A stretch of 64,000 bases of DNA. Source: Gracilariopsis chorda. Its lineage: Eukaryota > Rhodophyta > Florideophyceae > Gracilariales > Gracilariaceae. The DNA is taken from assembly GCA_003194525.1 (NCBI GenBank), contig NBIV01000051.1:298140-362139 (forward strand), written 5' to 3'. This document shows positions 1-47,204 of this stretch, one piece after another. The position numbers were made by a program, and so were the translations under genes. Numbering within the stretch: position 1 is the first letter of the stretch; the number at the start of each line of letters is the position of its first letter. The notes beneath the pieces are model-generated. The model did not search any database. It had not been told where the DNA came from and worked only from the letters and a program-made list of their open reading frames with translations.

Positions 1-435
1 GTGTTCGCGATGGAGCACCATGACACCTCGGACCATGGTCCTGGACCAAAAACGAAGAGAAACATAATCCATGGCAACCAAGTCAAAAGCGACTGGCGCA
101 TTCTTCGCAACCGCATTCGTTGCGCGGTTTGGGCGATTGAAAACTTCTATCGAACCCGAAGAACAACTTTTTCTTGTTAAACAAAGCACCGGAGTGGTCG
201 TCTCCAACAGTTTTACCCCCTTCTTTTGAAGCTCCCGTGATCGCGCTTGCTTGGTTCCAAAGAGATGGACGTAAGCACTATATATCGTTTTCAAGACGTT
301 TCATGACATCCATGCGTCGTCATCGTAGCATCCCTGCAGTTCCCCTCCCAATTACTTGCATTGCAAAAAAAAAATTGATAATTTTTTTGGTCTAGGACCA
401 TGGTCCGAGGTGTCGTGGTGCTCCATCGCGAACAC
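1..435. mobile_element. small terminal-inverted-repeat element (MITE-like)
   Basis: Positions 1-41 and 395-435 are inverted copies of each other over 41 bp with one mismatch (position 21). Each repeat ends on its inner side with the 12-bp palindrome GGACCATGGTCC. The 353-bp interior has no convincing gene. The left end coincides with the window edge, so the target duplication cannot be judged and the element may extend further. A stretch just inside the left repeat (about 48-71) recurs, nearly unchanged, just right of the element at 484-507, so the insertion seems to share sequence with the adjacent methyltransferase gene's leader. The size and ends fit a non-autonomous DNA transposon; the superfamily is unknown. 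Confidence 0.65.
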
Positions 436-477
436 GATGGAGCGCCAGGCGTGAATTTTAATTAACATTTCGCGTCC

Positions 478-3400
478 TTGACCCAAAACGAAGAGAAACA
501 TAGTCCGAAGGAAACAGGTTCACTCAAGATGCACGGAACCGGAGAAGAGCTTATTGATGCTTATCTTGCAGTTCGTGATCAATACGCAGCGAAGGGGCAA
601 AATATGGATGAGCCGAGAAGTTTGAAGCTCACCGACTTTGTGGAGTTCGCGTTACAAAGTCGCAACGTTCATGACTCTGCCAAGAAAACGTTTCTCACTC
701 TCATCGGACCAGATTACATCTCTTATTCGGACTCTGAGCTCCGTAACATGTCTCTCAGAGGCCCTCCATGTCAACTCTATCTTATGGCAAGAGTGGTGGA
801 CGTAAAGGAGCGTGAAGAAGGCAGGCGTGTAAAGGACTTTTGGAAGGTTTATTGTAAAAGGGAAGGGCTTAAAGGAATTCCCCGTAACGTGTTGCTATCT
901 GTCTTTTGCAAGTCCCGTGTTCTGAGAGCAACCAAGAAATCTTCGGCTTTTCACACGGATCCTTGCACCGACTTTGAAATGGTCATTGGGATGTCTATGG
1001 TGCAACAGAATGCCGTGGATAAGAAAGCAAGTGGTAGGAAGAGGAAAAGGAGCAGGGCAGCTAAGAAGTTCTCGAAAGTGAGTTTGTCGGACAAGACCCA
1101 GAATCAGAGAGTCGGGTATGGTGTGCAGCTGGTGGCCAGGGATTGGGATTGTTTCGCCCAATTCCTCGGTTTTTCCAACGTTAAGGTTATGATCTTGCTT
1201 TACATTCGACTCGACTCTATCAGTGTAGTCTCCACCGATATCGCACAGCGCTCCATGGGCTTCCAACAAACAGATTGTTCCAAACCGTTTGTGGAGGAGA
1301 AGAAAGTCACCACCGTAGAAGAAAACGTTACCAAATGGGCATGGAATCTGCGGGACCCAGTGGATACAGCGCTTCGCATTTGTGCCAAAGAATACCTTTG
1401 TGACCTTTCTAATGTGGTGGTACAAGAGAAACTGTTCGACATCTCTGCTCCCAGCAAATGGTATGCCCTCAAAAGGTTCTTCATCACGAGAACGAGACTT
1501 TTCCGTCTGCGGTTTGAGAACTTTAGTGAATCTCTTATCACTACGGTTCAAGAGGCCATAAAGCCTTTGAAAATCATTGCATTGCACGGAAGCAATGTCA
1601 AAATACATCAAACTGTGAAACTAGAGCCCGCAAAAGACGTTGACATCATTATGGAGCCGGTAGAAACTGGTACGGCTGGTGGTGGGAACCAACGTGCTAA
1701 GCATGTGGAAGGTGGTGATCAGAGTGAGTTGGAAGAAGTGGAAGAGATAGATATGGTAGAGGATGCGGAACGTGGTACTGCGGAACGTGGTACTGCACCA
1801 AAGGCCACTGAAGGACTGCAGAAAACAGCTTTGTCGCAGAACTTATCGTATGATGTCGAAGGCACGGGGATTCGTGCACCACCGTACCCTACGACTTTGG
1901 ATGATTTGATAGCCTACAAGTATTGTGAGAAGGAAATGTCCCCCAACTTCCGTCTCCACAACTGCAAGTTCGAAAACTCATCGAAGTTGACGACAACAAG
2001 TCTGGCGAAAGCGAGGTATCTATTGAAAGAAGGGTACAGTTCCTGCTTTCCGATCCGCCATATGGGACTCGTTCTGAGCGTCGTTTGGAGAACAGCGAAC
2101 ACGATATTCTGACCGAGAAGGGCATGAGCAGGTCAGCAAGGAGGTCGTCAAAGGTTCTACGTCCTGGTGGACATATTATACAGTTCTGCTCATGGGATCA
2201 GGTACCGTTGTGGCGGGATGTGCTACGGAAAGTTACCTACATGGATGACTCTGATGCGAAGCGTTACTCCTTTGTCGTCGACGAACAGCCCCTCCATTTC
2301 GTACGGTCTTTAGGTATTACGACGGGTAACGTTGGGAGAATAAGTTGCCGGTTGCACCAGACGACAGAATACGCTGCACATGCTGTTCGTTCTGGAGTTC
2401 CTTATGTACAACAGCATCGGATGGTCAACTATGAGAACTTCAATTACGTTGCTTCACAATACCCAGCGTATCATGCAATCATGGATCAGGTGCCGCCGAT
2501 TTCAAATAGTAAGATGCTCATGTGGTCTGTTAAAAACCCGGATGGGAAGTATACGAGGAAGAGGGTGTGACCGGAACAGAAGTGTGGGGCACTGTTGAAA
2601 GAGCTGGTTTGCCGATTCAGTCAGCCAGGAGACCTCATGGTCGACATGTTTGCCGGCAAGTTCTAGACAGCGATCGCGTGCATGGAACTGCCCAAGCATC
2701 GGAAGTTTGTGGGGTGTGAACCGGACAAAGCTTGCTTTGAACACGCCAGGCATGCCACTATTGTTCGCTTCGCTTCCATAATACGCGAAGGATACACGGA
2801 TATTGAGAAGAGCCAGGAGCTTCAAAAGAAGGCCCATTCTGTTTCCTCTGCATTCCCAATGGGAAGAAGCAGGCACAACGTGTTATGGAGAGCTGTTGAC
2901 GGATTTCCGCCGTACCAAATTCTTCCCCCACACCTTTTCGACTTTCTCTCCACTTTGTGGCAGAGTGAAATTCTAGGGAAGTTGGGAAGGAATAAAGCTA
3001 TAGATGGATGGCCGAGGGAGCTTCAGGGAAGAATGAATCTGGAGAACATGAAGTCTCCATTGGGAATGGCGGCTGTGCACTATGGATTGCGAGTGGGCAA
3101 GTCAACTATTCGTCACGAAAAGCCTGGTTTTGGAGTGTTTGCAACTCGCCGAATCGCTGCAGGCGAGGTATTGTGATATTTCTACGGGACGTTGGTTTAT
3201 CATGACCTTTCGAGTCGGAAAGAAGTGCAAAAGACCTACGGGGAGGGAGTCATGGGTGTGACGAAGGATTGCTTCCGGAAGTATGCGGTGGAGATAGACG
3301 TTTACGGTCAACAGTTCCAATCACTTCCGCATCGAAAACAGCTGACGAATTGGCATGGAAAAGAAGCAAACCCCATTTTATGGGTGGTTCCTTCCCCTTT

Positions 3401-3680
3401 TTGTATTGCGGGGTATATCAACCATCCAAAATACGTGGAAGGGGATAAACAGTTAGATTCCATCGTGGATGGCCTCCTTAAAAAAAGGGAGGCTAATGTG
3501 CGGATGAAACGGACACCGGGAGTGGGACGAACACCAGGGGGGAAACGGACTACAAACTTATTAAGATGGAGGCGACAGCCAACATAGAGCAAGGAGAGGA
3601 ACTCTTCGCCAGATACGGTGATGTTCATGACTGGCAACCCCATTTGAATGTGGAGGATAGAACGATAGTTATTGATTAGT
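478..3680 (+). pseudogene. DNA amino-methyltransferase + SET domain fusion, broken
   Basis: A long frame (478-2112) gives an N-terminal region of about 480 residues with basic and acidic tracts and no domain I recognise. A frameshift near 1925-1965 moves reading to a second frame that encodes SDPPYG (about 2052-2069), the catalytic motif IV of N4-cytosine/N6-adenine DNA methyltransferases. About 200 codons later come PGDLMVDMFAG and then VGCEPD (about 2625-2720), the SAM-binding motif I region. The order motif IV then motif I is that of beta-class enzymes. Downstream, GVFATRRIAAGE (from about 3130), YINHP (about 3414) and IEQGEELFARYGD (about 3583-3621) are the start, core and end of a SET domain. 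In-frame stops lie at 2568 (TGA), 2664 (TAG, inside motif I) and 3174 (TGA, inside SET), with a further frameshift between 3490 and 3566 near a run of six G. It is a dead copy, probably transposon cargo or a transposon gene. Confidence 0.75.
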
Positions 3681-3892
3681 TTGTTTTTATAAACCTTTCT
3701 CCACAGCTTGGCTAAAGGATGTCGTTTATTATGGGAACGAATGTCTAGTCCTAAATTAGAACAATATTTCCTTTCATTAGGGATAAAAGATACAAAGCGA
3801 TATAGATGTGACACAGAAACGTCCATTTCCGGTACCAACGAGGACTGTATTTTCAAGATTTCACAAAAAGCAAAGATTTTTGTGCGCATCGG

Positions 3893-6208
3893 GTGGCGAG
3901 ATTTTCCCGGAAAACCCACGGCGTGCGCCAACCCAGAGCGTCACAAGCCACTTGCGCAAGAGTTTTGACTCCAAGAATCGCGCCGAAGGGAAACAAGCGA
4001 GGCCCAGGAAGGGGTAGTGCGGCGAGTGCGGCTAAGACGCGGCGAAAGGCTATTGAGGAGCGAACCGCGAGTGGAACGAAAGCGAAATCATGTGTTCCCA
4101 GGAGCGGATTATCGGGGAGGAGGTCAGGAGAAGGTGCTTCGAAGAGAGGGGGAAGAGCTGGGGCAAAGAACCTCGGATCCGAGCGCACAACGAGTGAGCG
4201 CACGACGAGTGAGTGCACGACGAGTGAGAATTTGAAGGCTGATGCCCATGCGCATATAACAGGCTGGAGAGATTCGGTTCGCAGACAGCGATCTATGCCT
4301 GGGTCTGGTGGTGGGGTGAAGGGTAAAAAAGGGTCGGTTGTTCGGGGAACGCAAGAGGTAACAGATCAGGGAGGGTTGAAAGGAAATGCACCGGTCGAAG
4401 ACCGAAATAAGAATGAAGATATGCACGGAAGGAAACAAATAGAAGAGGCAGGTGCGTTGAAGAGAGGTGGGGCCCCAAGTGGAAACCGAGATGTAGGAGA
4501 GGTAAATGTCTCTTTGGAACACAGTGATGGGGACGAAGAGGATCATATTGTGAAGGAGAGATGGACGAGAGATATGATAAACGAAGGAGTGGGACGCCGC
4601 TCTAATTTAAAGGAAACGCGAGAAGTGGAAGAAGTGGTCGGAGCGACGGATGGAATACAGGAAGCATCAAAAAAGCGGAGACTGCACAAGCACACTCGTG
4701 CGGAAGCGCAAGGTGCAGATGGCTGAAAACTTGGAAAGTGATAGAGGAAGCAGAACGCCGCAGACTCTGACAGGCATGCGAGAGAGAAAATGAATTGTTC
4801 ATCGGTCGCGAAGTGAACCTGCTGAGGAGCGAAGTGTGCCTGTCAATGTTTTGGGAGATGCAGGAAGTGACAACATCGGTGTGATTTCTTGATCTTCGTT
4901 AGGTGAGAGGGTCAATATATTGAGGTCAGAACTCGGACGGATCAACGGGGACCACTGCAGCCTAAAGATGTCGCTGAAGCTGACGCAAGAGGAACTGAAG
5001 AGGATGAGAGAAGAGATGAGCGAGAAGAATATATTGATAGATATCTTACGGGAATGGATGAAGGTGGGAGGGGGGGAGAGAAAGGGAGCTGAAGGTGAAA
5101 ATGGCTTGAGAGGGCGTAGGAAGTATGAAGTTGATGTGCAAGAGATTTTTTATGGGTTTGCCAGGGTATTATATGATATATTGTTGTACTATGCGAAGGT
5201 GGAGGTATCGGAGTTTGGTTTCACTTCGGAGGGTGTGGAAAGAAACTGGAAGAATCGATGCAAAGTATTGGGGAAAGAAAGAGGGTGGAGTGTGCTTGTC
5301 GTCGGAGGAAAGGAAATTGTGCCTCGATGTCCGTTTGAGATCGCGTCTGAGATGAGGTCGTACACGCCTTTGTCGCGAGGAGGAAGTAATGACCAATTGA
5401 AGTACTTGGTTGGCGTTGAGATTGAGGGGGAGAGATGGCTGTCGATTAGTGATGCCGGTAAGAAGGATCAATGCATGCGGGAGGTTGTTGCCGACAGGTG
5501 TTAGAGGCAACGTATGAAGCAGAATTTGAGTGATGTGTTTGGGATTCGGAAGCGTGCCGCACCGGACAAAATGCTTTCGTTGCTTGGATATGACTTGATC
5601 GCTAGATGTGTGAGACCGCGAGAGGAGACGGTGCTAGACATTGAGGTGAAGAAGCAGTTAGAGGACGCAAAGACGACGTTCAAGGGGGATGGGGAGGCGA
5701 AGAGCGGTAGTTCATGTTCTTGGAGGATGAGAACAATCGAGGGTCTTACGTATTATGGATTTCAGGTTGCTGGTCGGCTGAGGGAGTTTAGTGAAGAGGA
5801 CATGTAATTCAAGAACGGGGCTGCGGTGGAAGTGTTGGAAGAATTCATGGGACATGAGTTGGAGAATGAAAGGGAGGGAAAGATGGAGTACGTTGATGGG
5901 ACAGTGATGCATTTGGCTCGTTTGGATACGTGGATCGGATTTGTTTTGACAGCAATGGACACAGATATGGGGCGTGGAGGAAAAACACAGTTGTTATTTT
6001 CTAGTTGTACGGGGAGTATTTTCGGCTTGCGGTGGAGAAAATACTTGGGGTGGAGTGGGAGAGCTTGAGAGAACTACATCATGAAGAATTGGAGAATGAA
6101 GGTTGCGATGACGGTGAACCGCGTTTTATAGCTAGGAATGGGAGTAGAGAAGCGAAGGTAGCGCTGTGGATACCTTCGAAACGGAAGATTGTGGAGATGG
6201 CGCGCTGA
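3893..6208 (+). pseudogene. broken coiled-coil gene, probably transposon-encoded
   Basis: The first part (3893-4726) encodes a basic, low-complexity, Lys/Arg/Ser/Gly-rich segment including repeats of SERTT. After a gap with stops (4727-4919), one frame runs from 4920 to about 6000: a predicted helical, charged segment (about 4980-5060) followed by a globular-looking region (about 5120-6000). That frame has in-frame stops TAG at 5502 and TAA at 5805, both single-base changes from a glutamine codon. Near 6000 a frameshift moves the likely reading to the frame ending at 6208, where a 67-residue tail follows. I recognise no domain. Its position directly behind the methyltransferase-SET pseudogene, same strand, suggests both belong to one dead element. 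The 3' end overlaps an opposite-strand reading frame. Confidence 0.5.
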
Positions 6209-7327
6209 ATGAGGGCCATTTTTGTTTCGCGTGGGATGTTGGAGGACGAATGTGGGATGGAGTATCCGTCGCCGGGGGAGGAAGAGGGGGAGAAGAAAGT
6301 TGGGAGGTATCCCAGTAGGGTGAGGTTTTGGGAGATAACACATTCGGTGGAATACGTCGGAGAGGTTGAGAAGGGTGATGTGAAGGGGGTAGGAGGTGAT
6401 GGAGCAGCCTTTGATTGAGGTTACAGACGTATCGTAGTATAACTGGACGAGACCGACGAATGATTCCATACCGGTTGTTTTCGGGGTGTGCCAGACGACA
6501 TCATTGATGTGGCACTGCGTGATGGCCTGTTCAAAAACAGGAACGACTTTGTTTCCGAAGGCTGCGGCCATAGGATGGGCGAAGGCGGGGGTTGAAGAAG
6601 AGTAAGGTGAAGATTGGGACACGCGTTGTAAGAAGATGTTGTTGAAGTGTGCGAGAGAGAGTTGTTGCTTCAGGACGTCTATGGCGCCTTTTTGGAAGAG
6701 AGTTGCGAAGAAGGAGTTGTGCTCGTCAGAGATTGTGAGAGGGAGAAAACTGGTGGAGTTGATACGTCTCTTGAAAAGGTGTTCTTGGAGTGCGAGGCAC
6801 TGCTTTGCAGAGGAGATGGATTTCTGGAAGGATGACGTGGAGAAGTCTGGGTGGTTGAGAAGGGAGAGGAGTTCGTCGCCTTTGCGTGTGCTGAAGGAGG
6901 AAGCGATGGAGGAGATGCAGAGGACGAGTTGCTCGAGATGGGGGTTGTTGGGGAGAGGGGATGGGGATTGGGACGACGTATGGGGAGGTGGGTTTGAGGA
7001 GGAGACTGAACAGAGGGCGTGACATGCCATGTGGTGTGCGTCTTGTGTTTGGAGGGAAAGGGAGGCCTGTTGGATGTGATAGGGTTCATCTTCGGCGAGG
7101 GGGACGTTGTCGGAGGGGCGGTGTGAGGGAGTAGGAGGAGGAATGGTGGAGAGGTTTGGAACGGTTTTTCGTCGCTTGGTCCTTGGAGGGAACTGGACGG
7201 GAGCGTTGGCGGAGGAGGAAGGGCGTTTGTCGGCGGTGAGTCGATGAGGGCACCTGCGTTGGCGACTCTGGAGAGAGAACGCGGTGCAGCCATAGAAGGT
7301 GCAACGGGGATGGCAACAGGGTATCAT
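6074..7327 (-). CDS. hypothetical protein, Pro/Ser-rich N-terminus, possible transposon ORF
   Basis: An uninterrupted minus-strand frame of 417 codons starting at an ATG (7327). The N-terminus has a Cys/His cluster (CCHPRCTFYGC and a later CPH) that might bind zinc, then a Lys/Arg patch and a Pro/Ser-rich stretch, then a more ordinary helical segment around residues 150-330. The last 70 residues are antisense to the end of the plus-strand coiled-coil gene and may not be real coding sequence. I recognise no family. Being convergent to a decayed transposon gene, it may be another protein of the same element; it is also possible that the frame is open by chance in a pyrimidine-rich strand. Confidence 0.4.
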   Translation of the reverse strand: MIPCCHPRCTFYGCTAFSLQSRQRRCPHRLTADKRPSSSANAPVQFPPRTKRRKTVPNLSTIPPPTPSHRPSDNVPLAEDEPYHIQQASLSLQTQDAHHMACHALCSVSSSNPPPHTSSQSPSPLPNNPHLEQLVLCISSIASSFSTRKGDELLSLLNHPDFSTSSFQKSISSAKQCLALQEHLFKRRINSTSFLPLTISDEHNSFFATLFQKGAIDVLKQQLSLAHFNNIFLQRVSQSSPYSSSTPAFAHPMAAAFGNKVVPVFEQAITQCHINDVVWHTPKTTGMESFVGLVQLYYDTSVTSIKGCSITSYPLHITLLNLSDVFHRMCYLPKPHPTGIPPNFLLPLFLPRRRILHPTFVLQHPTRNKNGPHSARHLHNLPFRRYPQRYLRFSTPIPSYKTRFTVIATFILQFFMM

Positions 7328-7802
7328 GGCGGGGAAGGAGAACGGAGAACGGGATGCTTGGAAACAGAGAAGGGAGGGTGGTGGCGGAGTGGGATATCGG
7401 GGAGCGTAATATTATGGCGCACGTAGATGAGGTGGTGCACGTGATGCAGAGCGTCTTTTCGTAGGGCGTGGGGTAGAGCATGCGATGCAGGGAGCAGGTC
7501 GGGCAACGGGTGATAGAAAGCCAAAGCTATTTGGTTATGTAAACGCTATGTGTCTATTCTATCTATTCTATCTATTCTATTTTGCTATTTGAAGGGGCAC
7601 TTGCTCAGGAACAGTAAGATTTGGATTCCACGTGCACCTGAGAGGGTAGGTATTAGTAGAGTCTGGCGCTAGTTTTACCTCCAAAGAAACTGGGAAATGT
7701 CTAGTATACTGCTAATCTTTTGTCCCAAGCAAACTAGGTCTGTGCTATGTATGGAATTATTTTGAGAAATTTGATTCATTCAGAATTGGGTTTGAAAAGT
7801 CA
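7328..7802. other. non-coding, AT-rich; 9-bp tandem repeat at 7554-7580
   Basis: No gene is visible. Three perfect copies of CTATTCTAT lie at 7554-7580. The stretch separates the first transposon cluster from the next block of decayed coding sequence. Confidence 0.6.
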
Positions 7803-8456
7803 TTATTCGTTCATTTCAATTCTTTGCCTTTTGAATGCCAAACTAGCATAACGAGAACACCGACGTACTTCTGCGCTCAACCCCGCGTTCGCGGTTCCAC
7901 TTGGCATGGCCGGTACCGCCGTCACAGGGACAGGAGCCACCTCCATAGGAGCAGCAGTAACGTTAGGTCCAGGGGCCACCCCCGAATTTGGAGCAGGAAT
8001 AGTCGTAATTGGCACAGCCGCAGTGTCGTTTGCACCCGTCCAGGGGCCACACACTGCATCAGCAGGCGCGGGCTCTTCTCCGCAGGCAGCGTAGTGTCCG
8101 TACCATTCCACCTCCGGAAGGTCGTCTGCCGTATAGTTATTATCTCCAACTGGGTGAAAGAACTTGCTGGTCATTTTAAAGCCGGTCGGGTGCCCCGGAG
8201 GGATGATACGCTAGGCGTTCCGAAGGATATCCGCTTCAGCGGTGATGATAATCGTCCTGGTCCAAGGGTCATAAAAGATGAAATCACTCGCAAGGGAAGA
8301 GCTTCGGCCTGGAGAGCCGTCTATCGGAAGGTCCCCATCGTCACGGCGACTCTGTGTCTTGGGTACCTGGTTCCAGTCCATTGAGTAGATCACTCGCAAG
8401 AGGCTAATCAGTTTGGAAAGATTTCCATTCCCACCGAGTGGGACCGGGAGATCCAA
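7803..8456 (-). pseudogene. decayed minus-strand coding remnant
   Basis: Two open stretches in the same minus frame (8456-8211 and 8174-7803) are separated by a single in-frame TAG near 8210. The second has an Ala/Pro/Val-rich region of low complexity. The Pro/Ala-rich composition recalls retroelement gag proteins, but no motif is diagnostic. It may belong with the remnant at 9124-9987. Confidence 0.35.
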
Positions 8457-9180
8457 GTCTCGGATTGATTACCGCAACGGCGGGGGAAGATACCACAGTA
8501 TATACTGGTCGTACACCTCATGAAGGAAGACCACCGCTGTTCACGCAGCCCACTACGTCATCACCACGGCCCACGACCCCGTGAACGGGTTCACTGTCAG
8601 GCGACGGCCAATGTATGTCACGCAAATGTGATGTAAGGAGTAACCCGGTCATCCGAGGTGCGGAAATCACCAAGTCGATACGCGACGGTTCATACGTCAC
8701 ACGTGTTTTCGGTAACCCGAGGGTTGTCACAAGAGGACACTGAGCGATGCACGAGCGGGTGCGGTTCATACGTGGATTTCCACTTTATTTGGGATGTGCA
8801 CAGTAGGTGCTGGCCACGGGCCATCTACTTAGAATTATCTAGATATTTCTAATATTATTTACTGTAGCTAGTGCGGCACTCCGCAGTACTTAGTGACGAG
8901 AAGGGTCGCACCTCAGTAAACTGGAAGATCATCGGGCACGGAACCCAAGTTCCTAGTTCCTGGAGCCTTAACCGGACCTCCGGACTAGTTATAACTTGCG
9001 GTCTCCCGCTAAGCTTCCACCCCACACGGATTCCCGTGCTACACCCGTGCTCACGCGACCGAACCCCGGTTACCCGGACAGAAGCACCCCTAGGCCTTGC
9101 CGCCGCAAGCGGCACCCCTATTATCAGGGTAATTCGTGGACATCCACATCGCTACCGAGTGGCCTCGCGCCCCTAGTGGT
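8450..9180. repeat. left arm of diverged inverted repeat (pairs with 11590-12440)
   Basis: Read against the reverse complement of 11590-12440, matching blocks occur in the right order: about 8755-8830 with 11960-12035 (sharing the core TGCACAGTAGGTGCT), 8845-8895 with 11890-11945, and 8955-9045 with 11735-11850. Matching is patchy, so this is an old duplication. No gene is recognised in the arm. Confidence 0.5.
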
Positions 9181-11589: not shown

Positions 11590-12440
11590 CGAGAGTATTG
11601 TGGTATCACCAATACTTCCCTGGAGGGACTCAGTAGCTGGCGGTGATCCGCACAAAAACCCTATATGAAGGGGTACTGCTTTCGGAGGCGAGTGCCCTAT
11701 AGATACCCCGAACAGAGAGGCGCGATGGAACGTGTAATCACGGGTAAGCGGTTGGCGAGTGATGCGCTAAGAAGGGCGGGGGAAGTCGCAAGTCATGCAC
11801 TAGTTTCGGAAATCCAAGTAAGGATCCAAGAGTAGGGACTTGGTCTCATGCCCTCATTATCCCAGTTTTCTGAGAAGGTCCAAGCGTCGGCGACTAAGTA
11901 CCGCACGGACAGCCGCTCCTAGGTACTGCTAATCATAAAATATCAAGGTATTATAGGCGTGTGCGCCGTGGAAAGCACCTACTGTGCAACAACCAAATTT
12001 GTTGTATAATCCATATACGAACGGCATCACCCAGTGCACCCACCAATAGCCCATATGGATACCCCCCGGTTGCTCGAAATTAAGGTCGTGGTATGAATCG
12101 TCGTCAGCGACTTAGGCAAAAAGTGTGCCTCGGAACCCCTAATGCTCCGGATGCCACAAGTAGTGACGGTATTAAACGGCAGTGCTGGTAAGTAACCCTT
12201 ATACAAAGGCGAACACCAAAGCAGTTAAAATAACAGTCTTAATACTAGGGTTATTTAGACGGGCCGGGGGATAGACTTTCCGTACGCTCGAAGGAGAGGT
12301 GGAGAGCACTCGAAGGCGGCAAGGTCTAGAGCCAACTATGCAGGTTGGGGTCCTGTCCTCGGTAAGTTGTACTGGTGCAACGGCACCTCGACGGTGCAAT
12401 ATGTACGAACCATCCCAGAAGTAGGTGTAAAATAACAAAT
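11590..12440. repeat. right arm of diverged inverted repeat (pairs with 8450-9180)
   Basis: This is the inverted partner of 8450-9180; see that entry for the aligned blocks. No gene is recognised. Confidence 0.5.
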
Positions 12441-14289
12441 GAATTTAACTAAAATGACTCAACACTGCTGGTTCATGCCCACTATTGTGGCCAACCGCCA
12501 ACTTACTCTTCCGTCCCCCAAGTGCCCAATACACTATTAGTGGTCTTAGTTCATGCAGAGGCTACATTACCGAAGCATTCGGGAAATCAACCAAGTGCCA
12601 AAAATACCTGCATGACGGCGTTGCACTTCAGGTCCATAAAAACCATTGCTGCTTTCAGAACGGTGGTTGGGCGGCGTGAGGAAGGCATGAATGAAAGAAG
12701 CAGCTCGGAGCCCACCCCGTTGATGCACTCCACTAAGAAACCACCAAGCGACCGCCAGCGAGCACAGAAATATCATATAGGAAAAAGCTCGAGAAATTAA
12801 CATCATGGGCGATTTCTAATGGATTCTGTAAGCAAATGTACAATGTTGCTGCACTAACAGGCAAAAACGCTCTAAGTGGGTTAGAAATGTACATGAGAAC
12901 GGGTTCGAACGCTTTGAATGCAGGTTTATCTCCCCTCATTCATGAGTCACAAATTCTTATTGCCGCGATAAATCGCTTTCAATCAACCGAATCCTTGAAA
13001 TCATTCGATCCTCGAACAATTAAAAACCCCAGTGGACGTCGAAAGACGTCCCAAAAACGACGTTGCGGGTTCCATGAAAGTATTAAACGCAAGAAAACTT
13101 CAGATAAAAGACCAGAGGCTGCTGGGTTCTCTTGTGGAGCCACAAATGGCGCAGTCCGAAAAGCTTTGAGCAGCGTTGGACCGTTGAAGAGAGCAAACCT
13201 TAAAATAGACTGAAATCAAATCCCATGTTCTTTCAGATGCCAGCAAAAACATGCTCAGATCGTAGTCACGATAATTCAAGTGCCCTAAAAGATTGAAATC
13301 CAAGATCTGGTGCAAATAAGACAACTAGTCTTAACTTCATTCTTCAAACCGAAAGAGAAACACAAAAATTGTGCGTAGAGTGAGTCGGAAGATGTGAGCG
13401 TACAGCTCAGCAGTGACTATGGAAGGTATTTGGAATAAATAAGATCCAAAAACACATCAAAAAAGGTGAACCAGAAGGAAGCATTTACTGCGGAGAAAAG
13501 AAACTGAAGCAGATCGGTGACAAAGCAAAGATCGGAGTGGGTTTGTCCTTCTTGGTCGACGGTTTTGACAAAATAGGAAGTGATTTGGGAAAAAAATGGA
13601 AATGGGCATGAAAACGGGACGAAAAAGGATGCAGTGAGAACGCACAGTGATGTGAAGCGTTATAATGTACAAGGTTGAAGACAAAATGGTTTTGTTCGAA
13701 AGAAATCAGTGAGAGCGCGCAGTGTTGTAAAGCATCATGAATGAGAACATTAAAGTAGTGCGACGGTCACAGTGCAGCGCAAGTAAATGTGGTGAACGTA
13801 TCTGAACCGTCTTAGTTAAGTTATTTACCGGCAAGGCAGAAAAAATGCCGGTGCTGAACTACAGAAGAAGATGCCGATTGATGACGACGCGATAGCGCGG
13901 TGGCTGTTCCTGCGCGACGGCGGGGTGGCAAAGGTGTGCGGTGGCACGGCAGTGCGTGAGATGCGGGGCATGTGCTGCGTTACGATGTAGACCCAGAGAG
14001 ATATAAGAGCATGGCGACGCGTGAGGTGCGGTGTTTGGCTCGAAGGCGATGAAACTAAGTGGCGCAATGGGAAACGCAAGATAGGAAGGATGGGGTGACG
14101 AGTTGAGAATTGGTAACAATAAGCGTAATTGAGCGTCGAAACGTTGTCTTGTAGTTTTTTGTTTCAAGATCAAGCAGATGTTTGCATATTCATCGCAAAA
14201 ACAGCACTGAAGTTTGAAAAGGTGCAGTACTGCTAGGTTTATAAAACTGATATGCACTTTTGGAGGATATTCATGTGTTGAAATGAGGT
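12441..14289. other. mostly non-coding; one weak 125-codon frame at 12836-13213 (+)
   Basis: An ATG-started frame at 12836-13213 encodes 125 residues with a Lys/Arg-rich second half and no recognised domain; it may be chance or a gene fragment. The rest has no convincing coding sequence on either strand. Confidence 0.35.
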
Positions 14290-15321
14290 TATATGTGTGA
14301 GCGTCAAGTTGCACTATTTCACGAAACCGGACGATAACAGCCCTTTCTTTTATCATTCTTTGCGGAGATTAGACCGGAAAGAGATTGGTACCTCGAGAGT
14401 ACCAGCAACGCCTCGCAATTCTAATAGATAGTAGACCGAAAAAGATTAATAGCAACGTGAGAACTGCAGTGACAGGCGCAAGAAATCCACGGCTCCGAAT
14501 AAGGCAAGAAAGAAATAGATGATGATAGAAGCATACACAGGATAGCGGCACATTAGTAGCGGTGGAGAACGACCGCGGTGACAACAGATGCGCGACCAAA
14601 AAGTTAGGCCTAATGAAATATGGATACGAACGTCTTCACCGAATACGCACGACCAAGACCTTAGGTTTTGTGCTTGGCTTGGGACAAACGTGGTAGCATG
14701 CACGACCAACACTTGATGTCCGGCAGACGCTATGTAGTTGTGATGAATACGAGGGCTGGTCTCATAACAAATCGGGCCAGCCTAGTCTCTCACAATGTGC
14801 AAGAGACCGAGCTCCACAGTTATGGAGAGAAAGTAGGGTAGCATGGTGCTGGGGGCAAGGAGGAGCAGACAGCTCTGAGAGAAGGTGGGGGTCGCCAAAG
14901 GGAAGAGAAGCGGTATGGCCCGAGTTGGTTTGGAGGCCGCCGACTGCGGGCTTTCTTAGACAATTAGGCTAGGCGCATAATCTCTAGTTCTGCATACTAG
15001 GTCTAAGCAACAACCCACAACAGCCAGTCATGGGAGATTTCTCTGCCATGACAAACCAGCTTGGCGAAGGTACAGTCCTTCTGAGGGTACTTTTGTGTCT
15101 ATAAAATATCTCCTGAGGGCACCAGGTGATTCCAGCAACATCGTTCTAACCACCCCAGTATGTCCAAAATTGACGGAACTGTCACTATTCGAGAGGTCTC
15201 AGACGATTCCTGCTTGTCGCGTTATTCGGTTCAGCACTGTGATTTAGTAGAGATAGAAGCCGAAGAAGAACTTTGTACTCCAGCGTCAGTTCATACCGCT
15301 CAAGATCATCAAGAGGGTTAC

Positions 15322-16381
15322 TGTTGGTTGCAAAACGTGTAGAGTGTTCTGGTACTACTGTAACACACGTGTAGAGTGTTCCAACAGCTCCTAGAGCATT
15401 CTTATCCTCTCTGGCCCACCAGTGCTACTGTATTTCATTGACTCTGGAGTCAGGAGACGGAGTTTTATTGGTTTGTGTGCAGCACCAGAGGCGGCGAGAA
15501 GCCAATGGAGTAACCTAGACGCACACTTGAGTAAGTAGAAAGTAGTAGTGCATTTTTGCGTTGATTTAAGTGCTTTTAGACGCTATAAAAGGGCAATTTG
15601 ACGCCTGGCCTTCGGTCTGGACTCAAAACATCATCACATACAAACACAAACCTCACCACCCAACCGTTTGTATTCATTCTATCATCCATTCAACCATCAT
15701 TTTCATCTAGTGAGGCGTTTGCCGCTAGGTGCATAATTAGGGTGGGGAACTGCTGTGGCTAAGACCCGTTGAAGCGCTCCAAGCGTGGACAGGAGACGAG
15801 CAGTTTGTACCAAACGTGCTTTTGCAGTCTGTGAGCCTCACCGGAGCTTTGCTCGGATAACGTTGTCGGTCAAAAGACATGGTGATTTCCGGACGGAAGG
15901 CTGGCCGGGAAGCTGTCCACAGGTGACGTGCCGTGCAACCTTTCCTGCAAAGGCCAGATTGGGTACAGAGTGAAAGAATATCACGCTGTGAGTAGCTCTC
16001 CATTGGAAGCCCTGTAAGGATTGTACGCGTCTGCTTCTGGTTAGCGCAGAAGTAGGTAGGCTGCAGAGATCGCTTCACATCTGTAGTGTCTGACCGGAAG
16101 CCGGAAGTCTGACTCCTAGTTGCCATTGACATAAGTCTTTGTTCGCGCGCTGTTTCAAGAAGTTTTGAAGAAGTTTTCTGGGATTGAGACTCTTGTTCTG
16201 CTTTTGTTTTCATATTTGCTTAGAAGGTTGAGTCTTTTTGGTCCATGCATTTCCATTTGCTCGTACTTATTGGTTATCATTTTCATCTCTAAGGGCCTTT
16301 CAGCTACGAGGACACCCTTTCCAGCCTACTTTTTTGCTTAGTTTGGTTCCCCTGCGTCACTGTTTTGTGAGGGCGCCCACA
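15322..16381 (+). mobile_element. solo LTR, 1,060 bp, target duplication GTTAC
   Basis: This block is absent from the matching place in the other arm of the inverted duplication (about 19900), which serves as the empty site. It begins TGTTGG, ends CCCACA (the TG...CA ends of LTRs) and is flanked by GTTAC on both sides (15317-15321 and 16382-16386). There is no gag or pol. The ends, the 5-bp duplication and the lack of coding sequence define a solo LTR left by recombination between the two LTRs of a retrotransposon. A TATA box near 15584 indicates plus-strand transcription. Confidence 0.85.
15583..15592 (+). promoter_or_regulatory. TATA box inside solo LTR
   Basis: CTATAAAAGG lies about 260 bp from the left end of the LTR, a usual place for the U3 promoter. 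The following C/A-rich stretch (about 15620-15660) would be the transcript start region. This sets the LTR's orientation as plus. Confidence 0.6.
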
Positions 16382-17505
16382 GTTACCCATTATGTATTTA
16401 GGATTGAAGATGGTCCAAAGACTTACTAGTAGCATTCGAGGACATATTACTTCTCATTACGGAGAAAGAAGCGAAAATAAAGACCAGAGCTAGGGAGATC
16501 AATGATATCATTGCCCAGGTACCCAGTTTATTTGTGCACGGGCTACTCCATTGGTTAGTATTTTCTTCAAACTGTCACTGCCGCGGAAATGCTGCTCTTA
16601 TTCCCCTCCCTCTTTTCATCACGAACTCTCGTTTAGACAAGTAAATACTTGATTTTGCGTGAAATCCGGTTCGTTTAGTTGAATTATTTATGCATAATGG
16701 CGATGACTGTCGCAGCAGTCCTAATCAGCAGCAGTAGTATTGGCCCCAAAAGTAATGCCGACCAAGATGGAGAAGATAAGGCTGCCGCTGGTGGTAGTGG
16801 ACGGGTAGAGGTAATATATGGGTGGCTCAGCGAGGGTTTCTGGAGGCAACGGGGAGGCTAAGGTGGCGGTGCGGGGCTAGTGGGCATTCCGGCGCGGGTT
16901 GCCGCAGCGCCAACGCGGTCAGAGTGGTGGAGCAGGCGCGCAACAGCGTGCAGGCACCGTGCTGACGTGTGAACAGGGTGCCCTCTGGGGGGTGGTGTTC
17001 GGCGTGGTGCACAATAAGAATGAGGCGCGAGAAAAAGGCGTTGAAGCGCGCCATGGTGGCTGGCACGGGCTCGACGGGCTCACCCCTAAGCTCGTCGATG
17101 TGGTTCTGAAACTCGTACCACCACGGAAGCGGAGCAACGCGAGGCGATGGAATCCGGGAAGCGCAGGAGCGGAAGCACGGCGCGCGTGGGAACGTTGTGT
17201 GTGGCGGCTCGTAGCGGGAGGTTGTGCGATGAGAAGAAGAGCGGGCGCAGATGCAGCGGGGTGGCGGTGTGAAAGACGCGCGAACCCGCGCGAACGGGAG
17301 TGCCGTCCAACACGACGAGGTCCATAGCGTGGCGGTGTGTGGTCAACCTGGGCGTGCTGCAAGCGGTGTTTCTAGTGGAGCCAAATGGAGGTGAAGGTGG
17401 TCCTGAAATGAGAATGCATCTCAAACGGACTCACTTCCCCTCCCCAATTAGGGCAACACAAAAGAAAAAAAGGGTGGGGGTACCTGAGAATATGTGTGTG
17501 TAGCG

Positions 17506-18244: not shown

Positions 18245-20930
18245 TATGTGTGAGGTAGTTCCACCCCTTTTCTTTCTTTTGTGTTGGCCTAAGTTAGGAG
18301 GCAGAGGGAGTCCGTATAAGATGCAATACCTTTTCAGGACCACGCCCCCCTCCATTTCATTCCACTCTAATCACAGCCAGCAACCCGCCCACGTTGGCCG
18401 CGCACCGCCACGCCATCAACCTCGTCGCGTCGGATGGCCCGCCCGTTCGCGGGCTGTGGCGCGTCTTTCACACAGACGCAAAGCTCTCCGACTTGCTGCA
18501 GTTCACACAGTGCGTCTCCGCCGCTCCGCTACATTCATCATCTCGGCGTAGTCGCGTCGTCGCACCGCCACCTTAATCTCGCCGACACCGGACACCCTTG
18601 CCGTGCCGCCCATATAATACCTCGACCCGTCCATTACCACCAACGGCAGCCCCATCTTCTCGAGCTTGGTCAGCAATACTTTTGTTGCCGATACTACTGC
18701 TGCTGATTAGGACTGCTGTGACATTCATCGCCATTAGGCATAAATAATTCAACTAAGCGAACCGGATTTCACCCAAAATCAAGTATTTACATGTCTAAAC
18801 GAGCTTTCATGATGAAAAGTGGGAGGGGAATAGGAGCAGCATTTCCGCGGCAGTGACAATTTGAAGAAAATACTAACCCATGGAGTAGCCCGTGCACAAA
18901 TAAACTGTAGTGCAATGGCCCCGCAAGGGGATTCAAACGAAGTGGTTTTTCATATCCAACGCATTGGTAAGCCGTATTGTCACGGAGGTATATGAGTCGG
19001 CATGGGCCGATAGCCCATTAGAGGGATTTCCCTAGGAAGGGTAAGCAATCCCGCACACGTGTGCAGCGAGCCGCCGGACACAGTGGGTGCCATCTGAAGT
19101 GCCACAGGGCCCACATGGAGTGCTGGTAACCGGTGTGCCGGATAGTAGATATTTTAGATAATTTCCGACTGTAGCATTGTCGGCGAACCTGTATAAGTAA
19201 CGGCTGGCGCCGCTACCCCCACACAGTAAAACCCAACAAGGGACTTGGCTCTGAATACTTTTCCGCTGGTGAGAGACTACGACTCCACTATAGGAGAGTG
19301 TCTCCATTGATCCCGGAGTATTCATCCCCCTTGCACACTGAGGAGTGACTGCCCGTAGCATACGGTATATTTATTATTTGTTGGTGATTCGTTCTACAGT
19401 TTCAGACCGCCCATACGGATCTTTCTTCTCCGCCCTGTACGCCAGGTTTCGCCCGTGGTCTCGGGATTCTTCGCCACTGTCACCGGCCGGCACTCGCACA
19501 CATACCTTGCGCCGACCTCCCTCCTTTTTGTCCCTGGAGATTTGCCGTATACACGGATTATTCCCAACTTCTGGGTTTACACACCCGCCCTCCGTCGGTA
19601 TTGCCGGACCGGATCACCCGGATTTACACCCGGTTCACGCTGACCTCATCGGAGAGCTCAGTATCTGAGTTACCCTTCTTAAGGGAGCAAGGCTAAACAC
19701 CTTGACTTGTCTTTCCGCCGTCGCAGCTGGTTCTCCCCGCTTTCGCGGATTGCACTACATAAACTGGTTACCTGGGCGATGATATCATTGATATTCCTAG
19801 CTCTGGCCGTTACTGTTGTTTCATTCTCGGTAATGAGCACTAATATGTCCTCGAAGTCTATTAGTAAGTCTTTGGATCATCCGAAACCCTTAATTTTTAG
19901 TGGGTAACCCTCGTGATCATCTTCAGCGGTATGAACAGGCGCTGGAGTACAAAGTTATTCTTCGCCTTCCATCTCTACTAAATGACAGTTTTGATCCAAA
20001 TGGCTCGACAAGCTGGAGTCGTCTAACTAATAATAGCAATTGCGTGTGGTTTGGACATACTACGGTGGCTGGAACGATTTTGTTGGAATCAACTTGTGCC
20101 ACCGTCAGATATTATATAGCAACAAAAATACCGTGACAGGTGCAACAACTTTTGCCCAGCTTGTCTGTTATCGCAAGTATGCGTCCCAAAACTGGTAATT
20201 ATGAGTTGTTGCTTAGACCTTGTATGAAAAACTAGAGGGTATGTATATAGAACAATTGTCTATATAATTCCAGGTTTTGCGGCCTCCAAGCCGACTCAGG
20301 CCAGGCCATCTCTTCCCCATTTGGCTACCCTTACGATCTCTTAGAGCTGTTTGCTCCTCTTTTCGTTGAACACTACTCTGCCCCACTTTTCCTCCATAAC
20401 TGTGTAATATTGTGTTTTGCTCATTTTGAGCGCTCAACTGCCTCTATTTGTTACGAGATCAGTCCAAATACTAAAGAAAACAACATATCATCATCTGGAT
20501 CTCAATTATTAGTCGGAAACGTTACTAAGCTTGCTGCAGGCCATGAAATAGGATTTAGGTCTCTTTCATTCGTGTTAAGTGAAAAGTTTGGTATTTATGT
20601 TGCGTTAAGCCTAAGATTTAGGTTGCAGATCTGTTGTTACCTATTTTCTTCTCTACCGCTACACTTGAGCCGCTGTGCTGTGTATGCTTTTATCATCATC
20701 TGCTTCTACTTTGCCTTAATTGAAGCCGTGAATTGATTGGGCCTGTCACTAAAGCGCTCACGTTGCTATTATACTTCTTTGATCTACTATATATTGGCAT
20801 TGCACGCCAGTGCTGGTACTCCGTAGCTACGAATCTATTTCCGATCTAGTCTCCCGCAAATAAGGGTACAAAACGGACTGTTGTTGTCTGGTATCGTGAA
20901 AGCGTGCAACATGACGCTCACATTATGCAT
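18245..20930 (+). pseudogene. right arm of large inverted duplication: decayed membrane-protein gene (+)
   Basis: This is the inverted partner of 14290-17505. Readable pieces in the outward direction include HRHAINLVASDGPPVRG (about 18400-18450; the left arm has HRHAMDLVVLDGTPVRAG), a hydrophobic segment beginning WAMISLIFLALAV (about 19770) and a late hydrophobic region (about 20620-20740) that also exists in the left arm. Parallel substitutions in the two copies show they were coding before they decayed. A different solo LTR interrupts this arm at 18906-19759. I do not recognise the protein family; several hydrophobic stretches suggest a membrane protein. Confidence 0.65.
18906..19759. mobile_element. 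solo LTR, 854 bp, target duplication TAAAC
   Basis: The block starts TGTAGTGCAAT and ends ATTGCACTACA, a perfect 11-bp inverted terminal repeat beginning TG and ending CA. TAAAC flanks it at 18901-18905 and 19760-19764. The other arm of the inverted duplication (about 16530) has one uninterrupted TAAAC at this place, so the pre-insertion site can be seen. There is no coding sequence. Its ends and length differ from the 1,060-bp solo LTR in the other arm, so two families of LTR element have been active. Confidence 0.85.
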
Positions 20931-21295
20931 GGAATTGGTGGATGGGGAAACCTCAACAATGTTTGAGGTTTCTGGGCGTCTGGAAGATCTGGTGATTTGA
21001 GGTTATCAGCTTCTGATTGGCTGTTTCTTGTACCTATGCGGCATAAAGTAGATTCACCAAACCCCAGCAGGACCAGTTTAAGAATTTCCGAAACTGGCCA
21101 ATGAGAAGGCAAGATTGGCCTATCATGCCATCGATCAGGCTTGTTCGCAACGGCCCTGATGGCATGTCATGGAAGTAGACTACCAAGGTCTTCTATGCCC
21201 CCACTAATTCCTCTTCACTCTTGTCCGCATACACGACCGACCGCACTCTTCACGTTGATACAAGTTCGCCAGCAAGCACTCTTGCCGAAAACAAA
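20931..21295. other. non-coding, upstream of the 772-aa gene
   Basis: No gene is seen. A short inverted repeat (CCTCAACAATGTTTGAGG) lies near 20949. The stretch holds the presumed promoter of the gene at 21296; I see no clear TATA box. Confidence 0.5.
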
Positions 21296-23614
21296 ATGGT
21301 TGCAACGGAGTTGATCGGCCTCGTGACCGACGTTATCAACCGCAGAATCTCAGATGGGAGAAAGCTTTTCCCGAATCCGCGAGAGGTGGGAAGGAAACTT
21401 GTAAGAACTACGAGAGTCGTGGGAGACGTGAAGTTGGGTGTCAGGGACGAGCTCAGGTACACTCAACTGCTACGTACCATGTACCCCAATGACGGAGAGA
21501 AGTCCAGCATCGCAGTCCCCAGGCTTGACTGCTTATCTGACCTCGAGGTACAATCAATAATGAACGAAGCCGTCGTGACTGAATTTGGGGCCTCCATGGC
21601 CAAAATGTACTTCAAAGAGTGGTTTCTGGTCGGCGGCGAGTTGGACCGTTTTGCCAAGGCTTATTTCGGGCCAGAGGCTCAACTAGCGGATGCAATTGCT
21701 GAATGCGATGAGATCACCGGTTCCGAACAAAAGTTTCACATGCTTTTGCGCGCTTGCGTTGACGATAATGAAGAGGAGCTTGCCGAGTCTGTCCGTCGAG
21801 CGAGTAGCTCAATTTCAGGACATCGAAGCACGCATGCGCTTTCTTACATATCCCGGCTGGGATCTAGACACCCTGGTCTCTTTACGGCTCAGCGAACTTA
21901 CTCGGCTATTCCCGACATGCACAATAACACAACATTTGACTCTACCGACGCCTTGCAGTCAAAGCGCAAAATCCTCGCCCTGCAGTTTGGAGACCGTGAG
22001 ATCTTAGCATATTATGAAGACAAAGTTGGAGTTGCGCAGGTCGTGAGAGCGAATTCGACAGGAGTACAGGCTACTTGCCAACCCGAAGACATGCCGGCGC
22101 CTGAGAATATGCTCATTTCTATTTTCGCCTCTATGGCCGCCGACTGTCTCAAATCTCTTGGAGTTGTAGATGTTGAATCCATTACTCTGTCGTTATTGCA
22201 GGCTTGCTCAAGACGAGAGGACATGGCCCAGATAGATCGTCGCAAAGGATTCAATGTTGCAACAGACGCCGGACTGCTAAACGACAAATATAAGTTTTCA
22301 ACTCTCATTCAGTTGAGAAGGTGGCTGACTAGTATTTCGAGGGCACTGAGCATAGCGGCTGAGATTTATTCTCAACCGGCACCCCAAGACACAATTCGGA
22401 CTGGACTAACTCTCAGGGAAGCTAGGAAAGAGCTTGATACTCCAGACTACCTGTACTCACGCAGGGATGCTGCACTCAAACTGTTGGAATCGCTCATGGA
22501 AGGCAGCGTGGACTCGACATTTGATGGGCACCAGCACAGAACCGGCGCCGTAGAGTTGGCAAACCTTTTTCCGACAGGTTCCATGCATGATATAGAAGAG
22601 AAATTGATGAATGCAATGAGCCGTCGGGTAACTGAGGTACAGGAGAATTACACAAAAGGATCAAAGAAGCGCGAGGTTAGGAACATGTCAGGCTCTATGT
22701 GGCTAGACCGGATCGCGAAAGGAAAGTTGCTAACGAGCGAAAGAGCGAAGCAGCTTACATATGCACGTTTACGTAAGGACGTGCCGCAGGAGTTTGACAG
22801 TGCACGCGAGAAGGGATTCTATCTACCGTTGTACAAGGTAGTGATTGTAGTGCCAAAGGTTGAGGAGTTGCTCAACATCAGATACACTCGACTGCAAGTG
22901 GGGGCTGAAGCCGATCTGACTTCTGCGGTAAGTGTTCTAGTTGCGTGTGTGTTGTGGGCAAATGCTCAGAATCACGACGTAGTTGAAGAAATCATTCGAG
23001 CAGATAAAGAAGGTACGGGGGATTTGCTAAAGTTTAGCTCTGGAAGACTTAGCGTACAGCTGAAGAAGTCATTGATCAAGCAAGCCGGCGATGGCAACGG
23101 AAATCTTTCCGTAGGCGGTTTGATCGATACAGTGTATCGCTCTTGCGCGGGTCCCATGGACAAAGCGTGGGTTATTCGAGAGGTGCTTGCGCTGGCTTGC
23201 GTTCTTGGTGTCACCCACACTGAGACTTCGCTAGGAAGAGCTTGCTACTTGACGACAATCGAAAGAATTAGGTCTTGTGACAAGAATGTGAAAGAGGTAC
23301 TTGACGCAGATACCGCTGTGCCGCTCGATGGTGTTCTCGTGCGGCAGATAACAAAAGCGAGTGGAGAGCTAGCTTTTGTTGTTGTGGACAGTTCTCTCCC
23401 TCCCCATCTAGAAGTGATGTTGATGCCGACGGATGGCTGTTCTGAGGACGAAATTTCAACCAGAATTGTGAGTAAGAAAAGCGATGGGAGAAGGCTCATA
23501 GCTCACATGGTTCCGCAGAGCCGCAGAGAAAGGAGTGTGTACGGTTCCGCGTACGCCACGTTAAAGGACGTGCATGTTCAAATGAACCTTTTGAGATTCG
23601 ATATGCACGGGTGA
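21296..23614 (+). CDS. hypothetical protein, 772 aa
   Basis: A long uninterrupted frame; the first ATG is at 21296, and a TAA upstream in another frame and non-ATG codons before it argue against a longer start. The protein is mixed alpha/beta in composition with evenly spread charge, no signal peptide, no clear membrane segment and no repeats. Residues near 450-510 are rich in Lys/Arg (TKGSKKREVRN). I recognise no family or catalytic motif. It contrasts with the decayed sequence to its left: no stops in 2.3 kb and normal composition, so it is probably a living gene. It could be a host orphan or a viral or transposon-derived protein. Confidence 0.7.
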   Translation: MVATELIGLVTDVINRRISDGRKLFPNPREVGRKLVRTTRVVGDVKLGVRDELRYTQLLRTMYPNDGEKSSIAVPRLDCLSDLEVQSIMNEAVVTEFGASMAKMYFKEWFLVGGELDRFAKAYFGPEAQLADAIAECDEITGSEQKFHMLLRACVDDNEEELAESVRRASSSISGHRSTHALSYISRLGSRHPGLFTAQRTYSAIPDMHNNTTFDSTDALQSKRKILALQFGDREILAYYEDKVGVAQVVRANSTGVQATCQPEDMPAPENMLISIFASMAADCLKSLGVVDVESITLSLLQACSRREDMAQIDRRKGFNVATDAGLLNDKYKFSTLIQLRRWLTSISRALSIAAEIYSQPAPQDTIRTGLTLREARKELDTPDYLYSRRDAALKLLESLMEGSVDSTFDGHQHRTGAVELANLFPTGSMHDIEEKLMNAMSRRVTEVQENYTKGSKKREVRNMSGSMWLDRIAKGKLLTSERAKQLTYARLRKDVPQEFDSAREKGFYLPLYKVVIVVPKVEELLNIRYTRLQVGAEADLTSAVSVLVACVLWANAQNHDVVEEIIRADKEGTGDLLKFSSGRLSVQLKKSLIKQAGDGNGNLSVGGLIDTVYRSCAGPMDKAWVIREVLALACVLGVTHTETSLGRACYLTTIERIRSCDKNVKEVLDADTAVPLDGVLVRQITKASGELAFVVVDSSLPPHLEVMLMPTDGCSEDEISTRIVSKKSDGRRLIAHMVPQSRRERSVYGSAYATLKDVHVQMNLLRFDMHG

Positions 23615-41117: not shown

Positions 41118-41320
41118 GAAGGGGGAGGGAGGAAGAGGCGCGGCAGTGGGCAAAGCTGCGGGGGGGGTGGAGGGGAAAGGATGTTGGATGTTCCGGCAGT
41201 GTCGGGGTGGGTGTGTGGCGCGTTGTGCGGGGCGGGCGGGCGGAGCAAATGGGACACGGACGCATCGCAACAAGCAAAACGAAAAGTGATCGAGAGGCGG
41301 CGCGCACGACGGCGGCGCAA

Positions 41321-41414
41321 CGTGGCGCGGCGTGGCGCGGCGTGGCGCAACGCGAAGCGCAACGCGAAGCGCAAGGCGAAGCGCAAGGCGAAGCGCAAGG
41401 CGAAGCGCAACGCG
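41321..41414. repeat. tandem arrays: CGTGGCGCGG units then 12-bp units
   Basis: Ten-base units of CGTGGCGCGG at 41321-41348 pass directly into five 12-bp units of the form AA[C/G]GCGAAGCGC from 41349, with one base alternating between C and G. Confidence 0.85.
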
Positions 41415-41832
41415 CCGCCTTACAGTGGCCGTTTGTTGTGCTGCGCCAGTGAAAGTGCGCACACGCCGCGCTATTTTTGCGCCATGGCTCGGCACGCACG
41501 CGACACGCGTCTGCGCCAGTGTCATCGTGGCCAATGGGCGCGCGCCAAGTGCTGCTGCTGCCGCGCAGCGCGCCAAAAGCGTCCAAATCCAAAAAAAAAA
41601 CAAGTGCTTTTTTTGAGCTCTACGTTCCTCCCGCCCAAACACTCCCACCACCCAACGCTCAAACCGCCGCCCAAAACACCCCCTTTATCACCCCTTTATC
41701 ACCCCTTTATCACACACCCCCCTACCTCAGCGCTCACCAAATTTTAAACCCCCCACCACCCCCCCATAATCCAAAACCTCCCCCCCCCTCCCCCCTACAC
41801 ACATCCACCACCACCACCACCACCCCTCCCCC

Positions 41833-46156: not shown

Positions 46157-47204
46157 GCACAACAGCCGCAGGACCACAGAAAAAGTAAAACAAAGAGCGC
46201 GCGATCATGCTCAGCGGCAGAGTAGAAGTTATGAGAAATGCCTTTGCAATACTCTTACTGATATCATTCAGTTGTGTATCACCTCAAAAGCACAAAAGCT
46301 GCAGCTGAATCTCTTTATTATATATAAAAACTCTTGTGATGAATGTACAGGTAACCCTTTAGATAGGAAGCTAGCTTCCTATCTAAAGAGTTACATTTCA
46401 TCACGGAACGACTTGCTATCGTCATACATATCATCGCCCAGTCAAATATCCTACATGCGTAGCATCTGGCGGCTTTCAGTGGCTATCCTTTCACGGAAAA
46501 CCCCACATACGAGCTCCCGATATAAGCCTTGTTCTACAACATGCGTTGCTGTCAAAGAAAAAGAAAAAACACTTCATATACGAAACAAAACGTTAGCTGA
46601 GCGAGGTAAAGAGCCACTTTTTGGTAGAGAAAGAAAGCACCCTGAGCTTGAGGACCTGAAGCCTTCTACAACTCAACTTTGAATCGTTTTTGATTCCCGT
46701 CAGCATCGATAGTAAACTGAGGAAGCGAATGAGAGGTTTCACCATACAATCCGACACTTATGAGTTGCCGTCATACAATCACCTGCAAGCGGCATCATTT
46801 CAAGCTCATATGCAGCCAAATAAGCGCTCGACTGCTGACAGCTCTACACGTATGGCTCGTTTAAGCAAACACTTGTGACCGAAAGTAGTCTCAGTCAAGA
46901 CGCCTTCTTGAATGCCAGCGCATCATGTGATGATCACACAACTTGTCCACAGCACGTAGCGAGCGTAAGTTTGCAAATCGAAAGCTATAAATCGACACGA
47001 TACCAAGGGTAGCGGTTACTAGGATAACCTTGCTGCTTTTATTGGAGTTAGCAAATCGACGCAGCTTGGTATAATTAGCTTCTCACACCGACCGTCTACG
47101 GTCAGAAACTACACGTACAGCCTACAACTATCACAAAACAAAAGGGGCGGGGGAAGACATGGTGATACAAGTATACAATCCGCGACAATGATGCTCACTG
47201 ATGC
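45624..47204. other. convergent intergenic region; CT microsatellite and palindrome
   Basis: The 3' flanks of the GRAM (+) and kinase (-) genes meet here. A TC dinucleotide run occupies about 46115-46153. A 44-bp palindrome lies at 46351-46394. The longer open frames across 45714-46878 lack coding character or recognisable domains. Confidence 0.6.
46351..46394. repeat. 44-bp palindrome with no loop
   Basis: Two 22-bp arms, inverted and directly abutting at AGCTAGCT, with one mismatch (CCC against AGA context near the outer end). As RNA it would form a long hairpin; as DNA, a cruciform. It sits between two convergent genes, so it could affect 3' ends, or be a tiny fold-back element. Confidence 0.8.

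Follow-up and report, generated by a model that had tools for sequence, protein, structure and literature searches.

The left end of the window, by which is meant the whole 64,000-nucleotide stretch of Gracilariopsis chorda DNA that was analysed, holds a short element with terminal inverted repeats and, next to it on the plus strand, what is best read as a single decayed coding sequence (529-3679) that runs from an N-terminal region through a DNA amino-methyltransferase to a SET domain (Table 1). The preliminary description had placed this gene at 478-3680 and had counted three stop codons and one frame change within it. The gene itself and the three stops (TGA at 2568, TAG at 2664 and TGA at 3174) stand, while the number of frame changes rises to two and the start moves to the probable initiation codon, an ATG at 529, with 478 lying upstream of it. 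Frame 1 is open over 466-2109, frame 3 over 1929-3584 apart from the three stops, and frame 2 from 3497 to the stop at 3677. The intervals given for the two frame changes come from a codon scan that was trained on mostly the same sequence and is usable only for placing them.

Table 1. Features at the left end of the window (coordinates within the window)
Feature	Position	Strand	Remarks
Element of 435 bp with 52-bp terminal inverted repeats	1-435		arms 1-52 and 384-435, 96% complementary
5' leader of the gene	474-519	+	80% identity over 46 bp to element positions 38-83
N-terminal region, from ATG 529	529-2055	+	no known domain; frame 1 to frame 3 at about 1929-2055 (codon scan)
Beta-order DNA amino-methyltransferase domain	2034-2747	+	Pfam N6_N4_Mtase; stops at 2568 and 2664
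Uninterrupted open stretch of 169 codons (methyltransferase end, linker, SET start)	2667-3173	+	frame 3
SET domain	3126-3619	+	Pfam; TGA at 3174; shift from frame 3 into frame 2 at about 3494-3551 (codon scan)
Terminal stop codon of the reading frame	3677-3679	+	frame 2

The degree to which these frames have stayed open exceeds chance expectation. Frame 3 contains 3 stops in 552 codons as against 16.3 expected (P = 6e-5), and none of 3,000 simulated stretches as long as the frame-1 opening (548 codons) remained open. When all six frames of 1-3686 were scanned against Pfam at E <= 0.5, every match fell in frame 3, namely the methyltransferase at 6.3e-13 together with SET (0.023) and TRM5, the latter two below cutoff; the other five frames returned zero matches at E up to 0.5. 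An altered genetic code was also considered and was rejected, because two different stop codons and two frame changes would all need explaining.

Read through in frame 3 with X at the stops, the central part of the gene matches the Pfam profile N6_N4_Mtase (PF01555) over positions 1-219 of 221 at 1.5e-13. The score of 51.7 bits exceeds the cutoff of 26.7, and the profile search supports the methyltransferase that had been proposed from the letters alone. Without read-through, two pieces of the methyltransferase already matched this profile, one part of it after the other, at 0.028 and 0.004. The region is also matched by PHROG 67 (DNA methyltransferase) at 3.3e-15, and phmmer against solved structures found DpnA (2.1e-06) and CcrM (4.2e-05), both over the part around motif I. 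DPPY at 2052-2063 precedes FAG at 2649-2657, and SET follows at about 3126-3619, all on the plus strand; the collinear order that had been claimed is borne out. DPPY is motif IV and FAG is the AdoMet motif I, and the order IV before I is that of the beta class. The same DPPY motif favours adenine-N6 over cytosine-N4, and on the strength of it the target of the methyltransferase was probably adenine-N6. Among prokaryotic and viral beta-order enzymes, CcrM, DpnA and the adenine methyltransferase of Natrialba phage PhiCh1 (tblastn 2e-7, 23.3% identity, query residues 36-321) have motif order and catalytic domain in common with the gene; unlike the gene, they show no SET domain where they match it.

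The SET domain had been described as complete. The whole profile (PF00856, positions 1-105 of 105) is indeed matched at 4.3e-07, with 30.8 bits against a cutoff of 22.4, and the assignment is thus supported; the domain is complete, that said, only when it is read across the second frame change and one stop. Searched separately, its first part scored 0.0019 and the last 20 profile positions 0.15, both under cutoff. SET domains typically carry the motifs NHxC and GEEL..YG. Near the end of the domain, in frame 2, stands GEELFARYGD, and the NHxC site reads INHPKY, without the cysteine. Matches to solved structures are weak, the best being EZH2 at 0.052, and matches of this kind do not allow the subfamily to be named. 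Since methyltransferase motif I reads FAGKF followed by a stop and the NHxC position reads NHPK, catalytic activity of the ancestral protein is not assured.

Upstream of the methyltransferase, Pfam and NCBIfam found no domain in the N-terminal region, and PHROGs gave one weak match, to a family without an assigned function (0.011). These roughly 500 residues likely belong to the same protein, because coding signal flanks the frame change on both sides in the scan trained on the same sequence. Single-sequence AlphaFold2 models had a mean pLDDT of 35.4 for the N-terminal region and 32.7 for the methyltransferase with SET, and neither is usable.

The question of whether the two enzymes were ever one protein turns on the DNA between them. 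The open stretch at 2667-3173 contains no stop or frame change, and its codons comprise 27 residues of the methyltransferase match, 16 of the SET match and 126 between the matches. Because no break lies between the domains and this one stretch holds both domain edges, fusion is the best reading, and the proposal that an N6_N4-type methyltransferase is joined to SET in one coding sequence is upheld. As judged from the reading frame, it is highly probable that the two were fused in one protein. The competing account, that a methyltransferase gene and a neighbouring SET gene were brought into a single open frame by chance, through decay or a deletion, gains something from the single known copy and from the simulations of the linker length, 105 codons of which stay open in 4.6% of cases. 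It is nonetheless the least probable of the explanations considered here, in view of the 0.55% of 20,000 simulations (with the region's own composition) in which 169 codons stayed open, of the one frame that carries both domains and of the coding score of the linker. That score, computed for 2757-3071 with a codon model trained outside the linker on 529-1959 and 2040-2663, was 9.3 in the claimed frame, the highest of the six, with 500 shuffles at -6.8 (SD 7.1). The linker also reaches 6.6 and 5.5 in two frames of the minus strand, and of the four pieces tested, 3177-3536 and 3551-3676 each have a minus frame that outscores the claimed one; another tested piece, 2571-2756, overlaps the training set.

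Transposon ends had been suggested as a thing to look for around the gene. The one complete pair of terminal repeats seen there belongs to the 435-bp element, which abuts the gene leader and whose own left flank lies beyond the window edge. Because the leader at 474-519 resembles element positions 38-83 and shares an exact 18-mer with them, the sequence suggests that the gene once lay inside an element of the same family as 1-435. The 18-mer, which was picked after the match was known, has two occurrences in the window, of which one is its source, where 0.06 would be expected. Sequence to the right of the element resembles the element's own end from about its ninth base (433-447), a match that by itself lacks significance (the window has 4 such matches, a number reached by 14 of 100 shuffles). 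As a separate observation, positions 219-235 in the element interior form an exact 17-nt inverted match with 2816-2832 in the gene; its local score is 34, and none of 20 shuffles exceeded 26.

To the right of the gene, no partner for a second terminal repeat was found within the window, and no target duplication was seen around the gene within the window, the left flank being outside it. With the same left boundary, six-frame Pfam searches of 1-3686 and of 3682-8671 returned no transposase, and there was no match to reverse transcriptase, RNase H or tyrosine recombinase in six frames of 1-8671; in the lack of a reverse transcriptase or tyrosine recombinase match in those frames, the comparison with DIRS elements that had been drawn earlier is a loose one. 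All of this leaves the chances that the gene was borne by a transposon about evenly balanced. A decayed host chromatin gene, the remnant of a lost lineage-specific DNA and histone methyltransferase beside which the inverted-repeat element happened to insert, would account for the lack of a transposase and of a second element end around the gene; SET proteins are ordinary host genes, and likely host genes (Rpc31, GH35, kinase and PMT) lie elsewhere in the window. The 46-bp leader piece common to the gene and the adjoining element speaks against such an origin, which is unlikely but deserves the most weight among the alternatives. Third-position GC does not decide between host gene and element, since the value for the gene (about 0.51-0.53) falls within the values measured for likely host genes (0.45-0.77) and near those of the copia frames (0.475 and 0.516).

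The gene is known from one dead copy. No second copy was found inside the 64-kb window by tblastn of gene pieces. Six peptide patterns had no match among IMG/VR contigs, and in GTDB contigs they gave 23 pattern matches, none of them a relative by tblastn; one degenerate DNA pattern around HRxFVGC[ED]xD was found 0 times in IMG/VR contigs and at 23 loci in GTDB, where about 15 were expected by a rough estimate, with no relative among them (best E 0.18). Distant methyltransferases were reached by tblastn in phages (225 of the 50,697 records) and in plasmids (299 of 72,556); every one of these matches is under 60% identity, and none covers 80% of the query. The best 15 of the 225 phage matches and the best 15 of the 299 plasmid matches cover 41-52% of the query, within residues 3-321. 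Large DNA viruses can carry both bacterial-type DNA methyltransferases and SET proteins, and the bacterial and phage type of the methyltransferase relatives would suit a gene left by an endogenised large DNA virus. Such a source appears improbable given the lack of an IMG/VR match to the six peptide patterns or the one DNA pattern, and of any Pfam viral gene family in six frames of 3682-8671.

The reading preferred here, to which we assign a rough probability of 0.5, is that 529-3679 is a pseudogene whose intact form encoded a single protein of about 1,050 residues; most likely it served a DNA transposon as an accessory gene, and its product would have marked both the DNA of the element and the histones around it. 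Under this proposal the intact protein would be brought to DNA by its N-terminal region, which perhaps served in targeting, or by the methyltransferase's own target recognition. The methyltransferase part would then mark adenines (or cytosine N4), and the SET part would go on to mark nearby lysines, most likely those of histones. An element-borne protein of this kind might resist or tune host silencing, or might keep the chromatin of the element in a tolerated state. That both domains were once active on chromatin, with histones as the presumed substrate, is put forward tentatively, at somewhat less than even odds. Doubtful, and to be treated as speculation, is the further step to a lineage of DNA transposons in which one protein served as a double writer, placing methyl groups on adenine (or cytosine N4) of the element's own DNA and on the lysines of the surrounding histones, and in which a single gene would thereby govern both chromatin layers of the element.

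Several known systems resemble parts of this arrangement, as described in the accessible portions of the papers cited. SET genes occur in HarbingerS and Phytophthora MuDR DNA transposons (Kojima and Jurka 2014, cited in PMC12730594). These are eukaryotic DNA transposons with a SET histone-methyltransferase gene, as the gene at 529-3679 may once have been part of one; they differ in that no DNA methyltransferase joined to SET is mentioned for them in the text available, and in that no transposase is seen by the gene. Among retrotransposons, DIRS elements can carry a Dam-like adenine methyltransferase, and LINE, DIRS and Gypsy elements cytosine methyltransferases (PMC5890265), and the lineages with methyltransferase-bearing retrotransposons include Rhodophyta (PMC6338049, in the part available). 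The likeness lies in a DNA methyltransferase possibly residing on a mobile element (PMC5890265), whereas the gene described here combines an N6_N4-type enzyme with SET and lacks a reverse transcriptase or recombinase match; the term "SET domain" is absent from the main text of PMC5890265.

In bdelloid rotifers, N4CMT is a bacterial PF01555 enzyme that acts as a eukaryotic 4mC writer, and the accessible text discusses it alongside histone methylation (PMC8885841). It is likewise a bacterial-type PF01555 amino-methyltransferase in a eukaryote; unlike the gene at 529-3679, it is an intact host gene, and SET proteins such as SETDB1 are encoded separately (PMC8885841). SETMAR joins SET to a second enzyme domain and has a tie to mobile elements, with the difference that the partner of SET is a DNA transposase rather than a DNA methyltransferase (PMC8704517, as far as its available text goes). 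Here the partner of SET matches N6_N4_Mtase, and six frames of 1-3686 contain no transposase match. A diatom SET-JmjC protein offers another joining of two chromatin enzymes (PMC3145265, in the portion available).

A fusion of an N6_N4 methyltransferase with SET was not met among the entries listed in searches of mainly open-access literature outside Repbase Reports, judged by titles and the beginnings of abstracts. Within their accessible portions, there is no such fusion in PMC8885841, PMC12695648, PMC6211444, PMC3145265, PMC6338049 and PMC12730594, nor in PMC5890265, PMC7824862, PMC6474313, PMC13076208 and PMC8175986. This silence is weak evidence of absence. Eukaryotic adenine methylases are reportedly covered in reviews by Iyer, Aravind and colleagues. 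SET genes of DNA transposons have been published, as have the DNA methyltransferases that some retrotransposons carry; the joining of both was not met in these searches. Mobile elements are known to capture DNA-modifying or histone-modifying enzymes, and a single protein with both would link the two marks covalently. If the proposal is true, such a protein would allow one to test directly whether adenine methylation of DNA and a histone mark get written together at one place, and it would extend what is known of how eukaryotes use amino-methyltransferases of bacterial type.

The rest of the window contains intron-poor eukaryotic genes (GH35, Rpc31, a protein kinase, PMT, an alpha/beta hydrolase and patatin) and a copia element. 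The closest solved structure to the GH35 protein is 3w5f, a plant enzyme. Direct repeats of 927 bp, 98.8% identical, at 56312-57234 and 63074-64000 flank copia-type reverse transcriptase matches in the minus frames 58210-59361 and 59306-61756, and 56312-64000 probably represents a young LTR element that the end of the window truncates.

Immediately beyond the gene, a very strong excess of G on the plus strand (GC skew up to 0.53) extends over 4000-7500. The same region holds two convergent series of open reading frames, at 3812-6068 (plus strand, broken) and 6077-7411 (minus strand, 445 codons), for which Pfam gave only WDR93 at 0.18, below cutoff. A likeness of the minus-strand frame to KDZ or Plavaka transposases found no support in Pfam and was set aside. 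Inverted repeats of about 250 bp with 69% identity lie at 8760-9000 and 11787-12026. Farther along, four inverted repeat blocks of 72-89% identity pair 14296-17474 with 18265-20922, an arrangement that suggests a large inverted duplication or the ends of an element; the six frames of 12000-16999 gave no Pfam match at 0.1. An open frame of 811 codons at 21179-23611 has no Pfam match at 0.01. In a GC-rich part of the window, 40901-41744 is a tandemly repeated, coding-like stretch, with repeats such as RFAL when read in one frame and such as KRKA when the opposite strand is read. Two short palindromes were also seen, one of 44 bp at 46351-46394 (95% self-complementary) and one of 45 bp at 56261-56305 (84%).
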